DNA from: an uncultured Lachnospiraceae bacterium
Lineage (GTDB): Bacteria > Bacillota > Clostridia > Lachnospirales > Lachnospiraceae
Assembly: GCA_947175055.1 (NCBI GenBank)
Contig: CAMWLJ010000005.1
Location: 1-64,000 of the forward strand
Direction: 5' to 3'
Length of the DNA: 64,000 nt
Shown here piece by piece: positions 24,250 through 29,392 of this stretch. The notes under the pieces were generated by a model, which was given only the letters and a program-made list of their open reading frames with translations, made no database searches and was not told the origin of the DNA. Both the position numbers and the translations under genes were made by a program. Each line of letters starts with the position of its first letter. Positions within the stretch are counted from its first letter, which is position 1.

Positions 24250-26445
24250 TCATTCATTGTACTGAACCATATCCTCCGGCAGATATTCCCGGATCATTTC
24301 TTCCAATCTCTTGTGATCGATAGGTTTCGACAGATAATCTGTAAAACCCTCTTCGAGATATTTCTCTCTTGCTCCTATGACCGCATTCGCCGTAAGTGCG
24401 ATAACGACTGGCGCATTCTGTCGAAAACGTTCCGTCTCCTGCATCCTGTGCAGCGTCTCCACACCGTCCATCACAGGCATCATATGATCCAGCAAAATGA
24501 TATCATAATCGTTTTTGCTAAATTTATCAAGACATTCCTGTCCGCTGATCGCAGAATCAAACTGAACCTTTATTCTCTTTAGCAGTCCTTTGGCCACTGT
24601 AATGTTGACACGGTTATCATCCACTGCCAGGATCCTGGCTGCCGGTGCGATGAATTTCTCGCGGGAATGCTCCCGCTCCGCGAACCGGCGAAGTCTCTCT
24701 TTATAGTCTCCAAGCAGCTCCGGTCCGGCAACTCTCTGCGGTACGGTAAAGGTAAAGACACTGCCCTCACCGTATACACTCTCAACGCGCAGGCTGCCGT
24801 TCATCCTGTCGATCAGATTCATCGTGATGCTCAGGCCCAGCCCCGTACCCTCTACATGTTCATTCTTCAATCTGTCCAATCTGACAAAAGGCTCAAACAA
24901 TACGGAAAGCTTATCCGCCTCAATGCCGATACCGGTATCCGACACTGTGACCTGCAAGTCGATATTATTTTTATCTTTATCCGTAAAATCTATCTTAAGT
25001 GTGACCTGACCCTCTCTCGTATACTTTAACGAATTAGTCAGAAAATTAATGATACACTGCTTGATCCGCTGCTCATCCCCGTAAAGCATCTCCGGCAACA
25101 TCGGATCTGCCTGAATATGTAAGGCAAGACTGCTTTCTTCCGCCCGCATGGTCATCATATTCTCAATATCGGTCAGCATCTTCCCCAGATGATAGTTCTT
25201 CTCCACAATCTCCATCTGTCCGGATTCTATTTTGGAAAGATCCAAAATATCATTGATGATAGAGAGCAGTATCTTACCTGCATTCTGGATATTCAAGGCA
25301 TAATCCTTGATAGAATCGGAACAACTCTCCCGCAGGATCATTTCATTCATCCCCAGCACCGCATTGATCGGCGTTCGTATCTCATGAGACATGTGGGCTA
25401 AGAAAACGCTTTTGGCTGTATTGGCACGCTCCGCTTCCTCTTTCAGGCTGATCAGCTGCTGCGTGTACAGATGTCCTTCCGTCCTGTCGCTGATCCGATA
25501 GATCGTACCTGCCCGACGGTGATTATCATCAAAGATATCGCTCAATTCCCACTGGTAATATTTATTTCTTACCGTAAATCCTTCCTGATTCTTCTCCAAA
25601 AAATCAAATACCGTCTCTTCAATGTCCCGTCGGTCTTTCCAGTCAACTTCCGGAAAGATTCTCGATATTTCCCTGTTTAAATAAATAACCTCCCCATGGC
25701 GGTCAATGACAAGAATGCCTTCCCTGATATTATCGATCACCCGGTCCTTGGCCGTCTTGACCGTATCAAACAGACGATATTTGTACATGACAAATACAAG
25801 AAAACACTCTGTGATCATCATAGACATGGGATAAGGATCGTAATAGCCGAACGCTCCTGACATTCTAAGGAACCACAGGCAGATCGGATTCAGGGCAGCC
25901 AGACAGAGCAGGTACAGCTCAGGCCGTTTCTCTCCCCGGTGCTCCAACGCCGACTGCAGCACGATAAAAGTGATCAGGATGCCGAGGATCATCGTTGTCA
26001 CGACCCACCAGTAATAGACAGGTCCCGGTACGATGGACCACAGATAATATCCGTTCTGCGCGACACGTTCCACTTTCCTGTAAAAGATCGTATTATGATC
26101 GATCGTAAATACAACGATCAGGATAAAAAGATGATCCACCGCATAAAATCGCTTGATCATCCTGACATGCCAATCTTTCAGATGCGTACTGTACAGACAT
26201 GAAAAATACAGAAAACTGAGCAGTCCCATTGTAGTGCCGATATATTCGACCTTGATCGAAAGCCGTGCCGCCTCCTCACTGATACTCTGCAATTCCAGGA
26301 AATATCCTGTCATGTCCAGAAAGGTACAGATTGTCCCCACCAGCAGGATCTTCTGCTGTACGGAAGGTCTGGCCATCCCCACAAACAAGATCATGGCAAA
26401 GCAGATCAGCACGCCGATCCCATGTATTATTATGATCACTCCCAT
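24250..26445 (-). CDS. Hybrid sensor histidine kinase/response regulator with multi-TM N-terminus and PAS
   Basis: FLAHMSHEIRTPINAVLGM (HisKA), GTGLGLSITMNLI (HATPase), RILAVDDNRVNITVAKGLL and IILLDHMMPVMDG (REC). Confidence 0.93.
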   Translation of the reverse strand: MGVIIIIHGIGVLICFAMILFVGMARPSVQQKILLVGTICTFLDMTGYFLELQSISEEAARLSIKVEYIGTTMGLLSFLYFSCLYSTHLKDWHVRMIKRFYAVDHLFILIVVFTIDHNTIFYRKVERVAQNGYYLWSIVPGPVYYWWVVTTMILGILITFIVLQSALEHRGEKRPELYLLCLAALNPICLWFLRMSGAFGYYDPYPMSMMITECFLVFVMYKYRLFDTVKTAKDRVIDNIREGILVIDRHGEVIYLNREISRIFPEVDWKDRRDIEETVFDFLEKNQEGFTVRNKYYQWELSDIFDDNHRRAGTIYRISDRTEGHLYTQQLISLKEEAERANTAKSVFLAHMSHEIRTPINAVLGMNEMILRESCSDSIKDYALNIQNAGKILLSIINDILDLSKIESGQMEIVEKNYHLGKMLTDIENMMTMRAEESSLALHIQADPMLPEMLYGDEQRIKQCIINFLTNSLKYTREGQVTLKIDFTDKDKNNIDLQVTVSDTGIGIEADKLSVLFEPFVRLDRLKNEHVEGTGLGLSITMNLIDRMNGSLRVESVYGEGSVFTFTVPQRVAGPELLGDYKERLRRFAEREHSREKFIAPAARILAVDDNRVNITVAKGLLKRIKVQFDSAISGQECLDKFSKNDYDIILLDHMMPVMDGVETLHRMQETERFRQNAPVVIALTANAVIGAREKYLEEGFTDYLSKPIDHKRLEEMIREYLPEDMVQYNE

Positions 26446-26469: not shown

Positions 26470-27222
26470 CTAATTATTTTCATTCACTTCATACAGATAT
26501 TCCCGGCCCCGCTTCCCGGCCCGCGAAAGCAGCTGCATATAAGTAAGCAGCGGCAGCGCACTTCCTGACAGGTCCCGGTGTATCCCGGCGGCCTTCGCAA
26601 ACTCCTTTACCGTAAAAGGCTCTTCCAATTCATAGGGCACAAGCTGCAGAAAATCCTCCACACGCTCCATCCGCACCTCATCAAATAAAGCTACCGGCAT
26701 TCGGTCATAACGGCTCGATCCCCGCTTCTTATTCTTGCTCCATCCGTTTAACAGCCGATACTCGTCTATGTCCAGCAGTGGAAAAGCAAAAGACAGATTG
26801 GGATGTCCCAGAAACTGTTTGATCTTATACAGTTCCGGAAACGCGTGATATACATTACCCGTGACCGGAGACTTGTGCCTCTTCGATAATTCTCCCGTCT
26901 CCTCCTCCATCCAGATCACCCATTTATGGTGCGGAATCGGATAGACCACCGTCACAGGATACAACGGCAAAAATACCGCCAGCTTCGGACGAAGTCTGTT
27001 GAAATTGCCGTTCTGAATCTCTATGATCCGCTCTCCCGTATAAATATCCGCTATGTATCCCTCGATAGGCACCTCATGGTAGTCTTCATTCGGTTCATAA
27101 TACAGCTTCATCACCGCATGTACCGTCTTCTCCTGCAGCGTACCGAACCCATGGGGATCATTCTGTTTTAAGAGTACTTTGAGCTTCGCCTGCTCGAAGG
27201 CTTCCTGGTTTAGTGTGTTCAC
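26470..27222 (-). CDS. Uncharacterised protein; candidate CoiA-like PD-(D/E)XK nuclease plus C-terminal winged-helix-like region
   Basis: GYIADIYTGERIIEIQNGNFNRLRPKLAVFLPLYPVTVVYPI resembles D-x(n)-E-x-Q nuclease core; C-terminal PFTVKEFAKAAGIHRDLSGSALPLLTYM. Confidence 0.55.
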   Translation of the reverse strand: MNTLNQEAFEQAKLKVLLKQNDPHGFGTLQEKTVHAVMKLYYEPNEDYHEVPIEGYIADIYTGERIIEIQNGNFNRLRPKLAVFLPLYPVTVVYPIPHHKWVIWMEEETGELSKRHKSPVTGNVYHAFPELYKIKQFLGHPNLSFAFPLLDIDEYRLLNGWSKNKKRGSSRYDRMPVALFDEVRMERVEDFLQLVPYELEEPFTVKEFAKAAGIHRDLSGSALPLLTYMQLLSRAGKRGREYLYEVNENN

Positions 27223-27653: not shown

Positions 27654-28379
27654 TTACAGTTTCTTCACATTCCGGTCGCCATACAGGATCCGCTCCTGAT
27701 CTGACGCACTTAAAGACGTGAATCTGCCGGTCCGGTCGTAATAGGTCAACAGGGAAGAATTTTTGGCGATGGTCCGCTGCCCGTCCTCTGTCAGCAGACT
27801 GATCACCTGATCCAGATTTCCGGAACGCAGATATTTCTGAATCTCCTTATCTTTCTCTATCCTCCCGGACAATACTTCCTCTGGCAATTCCGCAGCTGCT
27901 TTTACCGTCTCATCAGATAAGGCATCCTGATTCATCTCCAGATACTCTTCCGATAAGCGATCCGTCTCTTCCAGCGGCGCTTCTTCCGCAGACAGCACCG
28001 TCTCCTCCGGTACGGGATCATTCCATACTCTGTCAAGAAGTCCCTTGAAAGACTGGACAAACATGGCAAACCAAGAACGGACAGTGCGAAACAAGTCCGC
28101 AAAGGTATCCTTCTGCGCCGATGCTTCCTTCTCCGGCCCGTTTCCGGACAGCTCCAATTTAACACCGCTCTGCATTACCGTGCGGGATCTGTTCCCGGCC
28201 AGATTTTTATCCAGCCCTTCTTTGGAAACCTTCTCTTTGTTCTCGTCTTCTTCTTTCTTGTCATCGGCACGCTGATAGTCCAGGCTGAATTTCTCACCGT
28301 TGCTGTTCGTATCCGCTGCCGTAGGCATATTTAATTTTTTGTAATCATAATAATCGTTGTCACTGACTCTATTTATCAT
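27654..28379 (-). CDS. Hypothetical highly charged protein
   Basis: Strong ORF with promoter and terminator; no family recognised. Confidence 0.7.
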   Translation of the reverse strand: MINRVSDNDYYDYKKLNMPTAADTNSNGEKFSLDYQRADDKKEEDENKEKVSKEGLDKNLAGNRSRTVMQSGVKLELSGNGPEKEASAQKDTFADLFRTVRSWFAMFVQSFKGLLDRVWNDPVPEETVLSAEEAPLEETDRLSEEYLEMNQDALSDETVKAAAELPEEVLSGRIEKDKEIQKYLRSGNLDQVISLLTEDGQRTIAKNSSLLTYYDRTGRFTSLSASDQERILYGDRNVKKL

Positions 28380-28456
28380 GGTATCTTTCTTTCCGTGGTG
28401 AACATACTGTGCGCGCATCCTGTAAACACGATCTGCTCTTTTTCATCTTTTGTATA

Positions 28457-28520: not shown

Positions 28521-29264
28521 TTAAGCTTGGATCATATTCTCCAGTTCCTCCATGATATGTATCAGATCTCGTAAAGTTCCTTTCTGCGCGATCTCCGCAC
28601 GTAAATATTTCATCACTTCATAATAACCTATCCTGTCCGGCACCAGTCCGTCTAATGTGCCCGGATACTGTTCCTGCAGATTATCCAGCAGGCTTTTTAC
28701 GATCTGCTTATTTAAGATTCTGTCATAATGCTCTCTGCACAATCTGACGGTCTCGTCAATGATCGCGTAAAATGTATGCTCATCTGACTCCACATATTCT
28801 TTTTGCAGTAACACCTGGTCATAGGATGTGATACAGACTTCCTTCTCCGATAAGTGCAGGGAATCCCGAATCCTAAGGATTGGCAGTAGCATTCCTGTCT
28901 CTGCGGCGAGTTTCTTTCGGCATTCGTTCACATGATCGGTTTTTAAGCCTTCTGTGATACAGGAGATCAATCCGACTCCCACTTCGATACGAAGGGGTTC
29001 CGCGATCAGGTTCTGCTTGATCTCCCGTTCTACCACGGTATTCTCATTTTCACACAAAGGCACGCTTTCCATGCCGAGTAAAGAATCCGCCCGTACCTTC
29101 AACAAGCGACAAATTTCCGCAACGAGGGTAACATCAGGAAGACTGTAACCCCTCTCCCATTTACTTACGGCCTGCGGTGTTACGCCGAGCCGCAGCGCAA
29201 ATTCGTCTTGTGTCATGTTCTGTTCTCTCCGAAACCTGCTGATGTTTTCACTTAAATGCTGCAT
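28521..29264 (-). CDS. XRE-type HTH fused to FlhA (FHIPEP) cytoplasmic-domain-like region
   Basis: HTH: MTQDEFALRLGVTPQAVSKWERGYSLPDV; FlhA-like: LRIEVGVGLI...RKKLAAETGMLLPILRIRDSLHLSEKE...NKQIVKSLLDNLQEQYPGTLDGLVPD...YEVMKYLRAEIAQKGTLRDLIHIMEEL. Confidence 0.85.
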   Translation of the reverse strand: MQHLSENISRFRREQNMTQDEFALRLGVTPQAVSKWERGYSLPDVTLVAEICRLLKVRADSLLGMESVPLCENENTVVEREIKQNLIAEPLRIEVGVGLISCITEGLKTDHVNECRKKLAAETGMLLPILRIRDSLHLSEKEVCITSYDQVLLQKEYVESDEHTFYAIIDETVRLCREHYDRILNKQIVKSLLDNLQEQYPGTLDGLVPDRIGYYEVMKYLRAEIAQKGTLRDLIHIMEELENMIQA

Positions 29265-29392
29265 ATTTTCCTCCATTCTGAAGCTTTTTTGTGTTTCTAC
29301 CTGTATGATATCTCATATGTCCGGCATTGTAAAACAACTGTCCGTTAAAGCATGATTCAACCGGTACAAAATCGGAGCTAAGGAAAACAGCA

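Follow-up and report, generated by a model that had tools for sequence, protein, structure and literature searches.

How does part of the flagellar export gate come to be joined to a DNA-binding domain, and does a protein so built still answer to the flagellum? The question is raised by a gene on the minus strand (28521-29264) of the window, the 64,000-nucleotide stretch of DNA analysed here. The longest minus-strand frame at this place, 28521-29276, encodes 251 residues, and the plus-strand frame contains many stops. A preliminary description of the locus had placed the start at 29264. This is the better start, because a GGAGG that would serve as its Shine-Dalgarno sequence (29270-29274, minus strand) lies 5 nt upstream of the ATG and because close homologues begin at the equivalent ATG, each with its own AGGAGG. 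The protein then has 247 residues. Residue numbers below follow the 251-aa frame, and all features of the locus lie on the minus strand.

The protein had been described as a Cro/CI-type helix-turn-helix (HTH) followed by the cytoplasmic domain of FlhA, and both halves were recovered. The Pfam HTH_3 model matches residues 14-64 (E 4.8e-15; 55.8 bits against a cut-off of 23). FHIPEP matches in two stretches (E 1.8e-16; 60.2 bits against a cut-off of 29.1), which cover profile positions 320-399 and 457-535. The score against TIGR01398, the FlhA equivalog model of NCBIfam, is 63.3 bits and does not reach the cut-off of 772 bits, as expected of a protein that carries only a fragment of FlhA. When the C-terminal half alone was compared with PDB chains, FlhA structures ranked top (best 3mix, 7e-11). 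A profile of 20 family sequences likewise had FlhA as its best PDB match (E 2.4e-18), and its matches also included SinR, P22 C2 and the ICEBs1 Xre regulator. Aligned profile to profile with 27 FlhA cytoplasmic domains from clostridia, the family reached a probability of 99.7%.

Structure prediction agrees. A single-chain AlphaFold model, for which the input alignment held 20 sequences and no FlhA, reached a mean pLDDT of 89.1 and a pTM of 0.74. Its first match in the PDB is FlhA-C (3mix, E 1.9e-8), followed by SctV-type homologues; the TM-scores of about 0.55 are by query length and cover the whole two-part protein including the HTH. Neither the lack of a significant FHIPEP match nor a fold unrelated to FlhA-C, both named beforehand as contrary outcomes, was observed. 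The fusion of an HTH with a FlhA cytoplasmic domain is confirmed and lies far beyond chance.

The XRE/Cro-CI type HTH occupies residues 9-68 (29073-29252), with helices at 2-18, 23-30, 34-41, 49-59 and 63-66 in the AlphaFold model. A linker helix (residues 80-93; 28998-29039) matches the last part of the FlhA linker in a gap-free alignment. The first part of D1 (residues 94-160; 28797-28997) runs, in the alignment with clostridial FlhA-C, as far as the D2 insertion point. There the alignment places a junction (residues 161-167; 28776-28796) where some 50 residues of D2 are missing. The second aligned block restarts in the D1 helix leading to D3 and comprises the rest of D1 (residues 168-187; 28716-28775) and D3 (residues 188-251; 28524-28715). 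Pfam, PDB matches and profile-profile alignment define the first part of D1 and D3; the latter two methods define the second part of D1. Since the alignment stops and resumes within D1 around D2, D2 appears to have been excised nearly at its domain boundaries. The C-terminus of the protein falls where D4 would start.

Alignment with FlhA-C thus finds neither D2 nor D4, and the N-terminal membrane domain is absent too: the 247-aa protein opens with the HTH, and the FHIPEP match begins only at about profile position 319. Both the membrane part and the region for chaperone docking, previously called missing or shortened, are absent. With membrane domain, D2 and D4 gone, the regulator is not a FlhA. 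For Salmonella FlhA we take the D2 boundaries to be residues 435-483. The positions reported for Pro434, Ala446, Phe459, Gln477, Leu492 and Gln498 (PMC9431611) fit this numbering.

Within the retained parts, Gly100 corresponds to the conserved Gly368 of Salmonella FlhA. Counting back without gaps from this glycine, we infer that Ile86, invariant across 20 homologues, holds the position of Salmonella Trp354 in the FlhA linker. The glycine alone survives of the GYXLI motif of FlhA. D1 still has its LxPxxRIRD-type block and D3 its IRD/IRN block, and the D1-D3 surfaces have diverged from FlhA. In the F state of the FlhA ring, the linker contacts D1 and D3 of the adjacent subunit, and the chaperone dimple sits between D1 and D2 (PMC10965912). 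A published model puts FliJ into the cleft that lies between D4 domains (PMC9431611). The FlhA parts that the regulator keeps are those making subunit contacts in the cytoplasmic ring. Because these parts are kept and those linked to chaperones (D2) and implicated in FliJ binding (D4) are lost, self-assembly or docking on a FlhA ring is favoured over cargo recognition. The leading reading of the module is still the one first proposed: within a transcription factor, it would act as a sensor or serve oligomerisation.

The same architecture is found in about 29 Lachnospiraceae genomes. Homologues are present in 14 of the 298 genomes in a survey of the window's family, which held nearly one genome per genus. 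A scan of named genomes, queried with a closer homologue set after the first alignment proved too diverse, returned loci L049-L067, again Lachnospiraceae or close clostridia by title, with Parablautia intestinalis D8-82 among the carriers. One further match, at 22% identity, is from a planctomycete and stands outside these loci. Two wider samples comprised 388 genomes at the level of the class and 398 at that of the phylum; among the matches listed for them there was no other HTH-FHIPEP protein, though rare weak members may have been missed. The remaining listed matches were HTH-only matches, frames of FlhA size and a small number of shorter ones, and several of the shorter FHIPEP frames in these wider samples lie at contig ends. 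One genome, G683, has two short FHIPEP frames (C2:387475-387993 and C70:5514-6053) that are probably two regulator paralogues.

In a phylogenetic tree the regulators form a single clade (support 100/99) apart from all FlhA, on a branch too long to place the donor FlhA. Among close orthologues dN/dS is 0.06-0.09, and D1 and D3 are constrained like the HTH. The family is under strong purifying selection and its function is kept. Its most FlhA-like member, in G173 (L046:7106-8008), has a continuous FHIPEP match over D1-D2-D3 (7e-29); D2 is retained only in this relative, which joins the tree near the base of the regulators. Directly upstream of it lies a stand-alone FliD_C gene (L046:6062-6838; 1.8e-9), the only flagellar-type neighbour recognised for the family. 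The copy of G174 is interrupted by stops, and that of G045 is without part of D1, its frame remaining open.

The preliminary description saw no flagellar or type III secretion genes and raised the possibility that host genomes lack flagella. Instead, the carriers are flagellated. FliF is present in 13/13 intact carriers against 154/298 genomes of the survey as a whole (Fisher p = 1.5e-4), a value that is optimistic since the carriers, though of different genera, are related. G045 was entered as an intact carrier because its frame is open, despite the missing part of D1. A separate flhA, full-length or nearly so, is found in 27 of the 29 carrier genomes, the exceptions being G271 and G174. As G271 has FliF, the lack of a flhA match in its assembly (93% complete) is probably a gap in the assembly. 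G174, which bears the broken regulator, had no FliF found at 76% completeness. The regulator gene is accessory, since 141 of the 154 flagellated genomes in the survey do without it. In one carrier, the one-contig genome G264, the flhA match (C1:1727725-1729680) has an internal TAA and is possibly interrupted; in G681 a second full-length FlhA (C1:17697-19721) beside that at C21:42553-44505 suggests two flagellar systems.

The window's own genome (G000) encodes a full-length flhA on contig C31, in a flagellar-chemotaxis cluster, next to what we take to be flhB, flhF and flhG-like genes. Its fliF-fliI genes lie on contig C62, where a gene that looks to us CodY-like (L171:9067-9852) lies upstream of what we take to be the fliE-fliF-fliG operon. 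The absence of flagellar genes noted earlier is a property of the window only, because the regulator sits outside flagellar operons. Its neighbourhood is generally not flagellar, and no neighbour or operon partner is conserved beyond the five closest relatives. In those five, two downstream genes with no Pfam match (27654-28418 and 26470-27222, minus strand) are in place. Farther along, 24250-26445 (minus strand) encodes a hybrid histidine kinase with a HisKA_7TM 7TM sensor, HisKA, HATPase and a receiver domain. Because the genome has flagellar genes and the carriers are flagellated as a group, an export fold cut off from any remaining flagellar tie is probably not what the family represents.

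The clearest regulatory signal lies at the gene's own promoter. This promoter (29305-29333) has a TTTACA -35 (29328-29333), a 17-nt spacer and a TATCAT -10 (29305-29310), and the -35 falls within an operator-like site, GTTGTTTTACAA (29327-29338), a palindrome of the form TTGT-N3-ACAA that is conserved in orthologue promoters. The promoters of close orthologues have GTTGTTTTACAA(C) in common, and in close relatives the -35 in the site is exactly 17 nt from the -10 (TATNAT). We then used a motif drawn from close relatives only to scan 400 nt upstream of remote homologues. The site, with at most two mismatches, was found in 9/18, against a mean of 0.37 and a maximum of 2 after shuffling. Autoregulation through a putative operator over the regulator's own -35 is well supported.

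Other targets did not emerge. The exact 12-mer occurs once in the window's genome, at the regulator's own promoter; elsewhere in relatives it is intragenic or without promoter features. One-mismatch matches were no commoner than in the reversed control, and none was convincing at any promoter. Across 28 carriers, a scan for the site plus a -10 mostly led back to the promoter of the regulator itself, the other matches being singletons whose spacing varied. A half-site palindrome plus -10 is common to five relatives only at the regulator gene itself, and the other shared half-site match looks like coding sequence. On flagellar contigs operator matches stood at the level of the reversed control, and the flagellar promoters examined had no qualifying site. 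With the site conserved at its own promoter and flagellar contigs at control level, autoregulation is supported and a flagellar regulon governed by this operator is not. A weaker or different operator could have escaped these site scans.

Which reading fits these observations? At about even chances, we take the protein to be an autoregulated XRE-type regulator that has a minimal FlhA ring module (linker end, D1 and D3) as its effector domain and an output tied to the state of the exporter. The regulator would bind the putative operator and repress its own gene. The module would do protein-protein work, through self-association, docking on FlhA or other parts of the export gate, or both. Through such contacts, DNA binding or the level of free protein would come to track exporter state. 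The output may be one or more other genes, or the protein may act mainly as a self-limiting FlhA mimic on the gate. In a more specific form, the regulator would use its own linker-D1-D3 module to join the FlhA ring as it assembles or to dock on it, and the finished gate would capture it, freeing its promoter or promoters; such an export-gate mimic, sensing assembly directly on DNA, strikes us as rather doubtful. Counted against an output that follows exporter state are the lack of an operator at the flagellar promoters examined, the non-flagellar and unconserved neighbourhood, the diverged D1-D3 surfaces, the 141 of 154 flagellated relatives without the gene and the relatedness of the carriers.

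In another account, the FlhA-derived module was recruited long ago solely as an oligomerisation or small-ligand domain of an ordinary autoregulator that has no present flagellar link. The operator-free flagellar promoters, the non-flagellar neighbourhood and the strong divergence from FlhA would all follow. However, the intact carriers, which span 13 separate genera, are all flagellated, and no FliF was found in the genome with the broken copy; we consider this account possible, on the unlikely side. Less probable again is that the HTH sets only the protein's own level and that its working part is a soluble mimic of FlhA, which would dock on the ring or linker of FlhA and limit or time export. 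The sole genomic operator at its own promoter, the retention of exactly the ring-contact parts and the co-occurrence with flagella speak for such a mimic, but its interface residues have diverged and the scans could have overlooked another target that has a weaker site. A chance fusion, an assembly artefact or a decaying pseudogene is ruled out by the shared architecture in about 29 genomes, the single clade (100/99) and the low dN/dS (0.06-0.09), and deserves next to no credence. Nothing about the window's copy points that way; among homologues there are the broken G174 copy and the incomplete D1 of G045.

The preferred reading, an autoregulator that follows the exporter through its ring module, has partial parallels in known systems. 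The regulator resembles FlhA-C (FHIPEP, PF00771; 3MIX, 3A5I, 6CH2) in the sequence and fold of D1 and D3 and in the linker end. Unlike FlhA, it is soluble, fused to an HTH and without the membrane domain, D2 and D4, and the same genome has a genuine FlhA at another locus. With XRE/Cro-CI regulators such as SinR, P22 C2 and ICEBs1 Xre it shares the five-helix HTH, a TPQAVSKWERG recognition region and an operator-like site over its own promoter, whereas its C-terminal domain derives from the export gate. In flagellar checkpoints of the FliA-FlgM and FliT types, the state of the export machine sets regulator activity. The logic proposed here is similar, but neither a sigma or anti-sigma factor nor a chaperone is part of this system, and no flagellar target came to light. 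In Helicobacter pylori, the export gate informs transcription by protein contact, FlhA contacting the sensor kinase FlgS (PMC6978683). Here, by contrast, the FlhA-like part sits inside a putative DNA-binding protein, and contact with the flagellum would be its presumed role.

Both halves of the protein belong to known families; their combination, an XRE regulator with a FlhA-derived effector domain, appears to be new. No pairing of FHIPEP with a helix-turn-helix or XRE domain was found in the papers searched, and the architecture may already stand in subscription literature or in InterPro architecture lists. Annotation by FHIPEP only may mislabel such proteins as 'type III secretion'. The family also offers a natural case of D1 losing D2 with its fold apparently intact. 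Feedback from exporter state to transcription is known for a few checkpoints, FlgM export among them. The influence of FlhA itself on early gene expression has been stated to be unknown (PMC6978683). With the ring-contact part of FlhA and a DNA-binding domain in one soluble protein, the relation between FlhA and transcription becomes testable in a single molecule, and if the flagellar tie is true, these bacteria would have a new way of coupling gene control to the state of the exporter.
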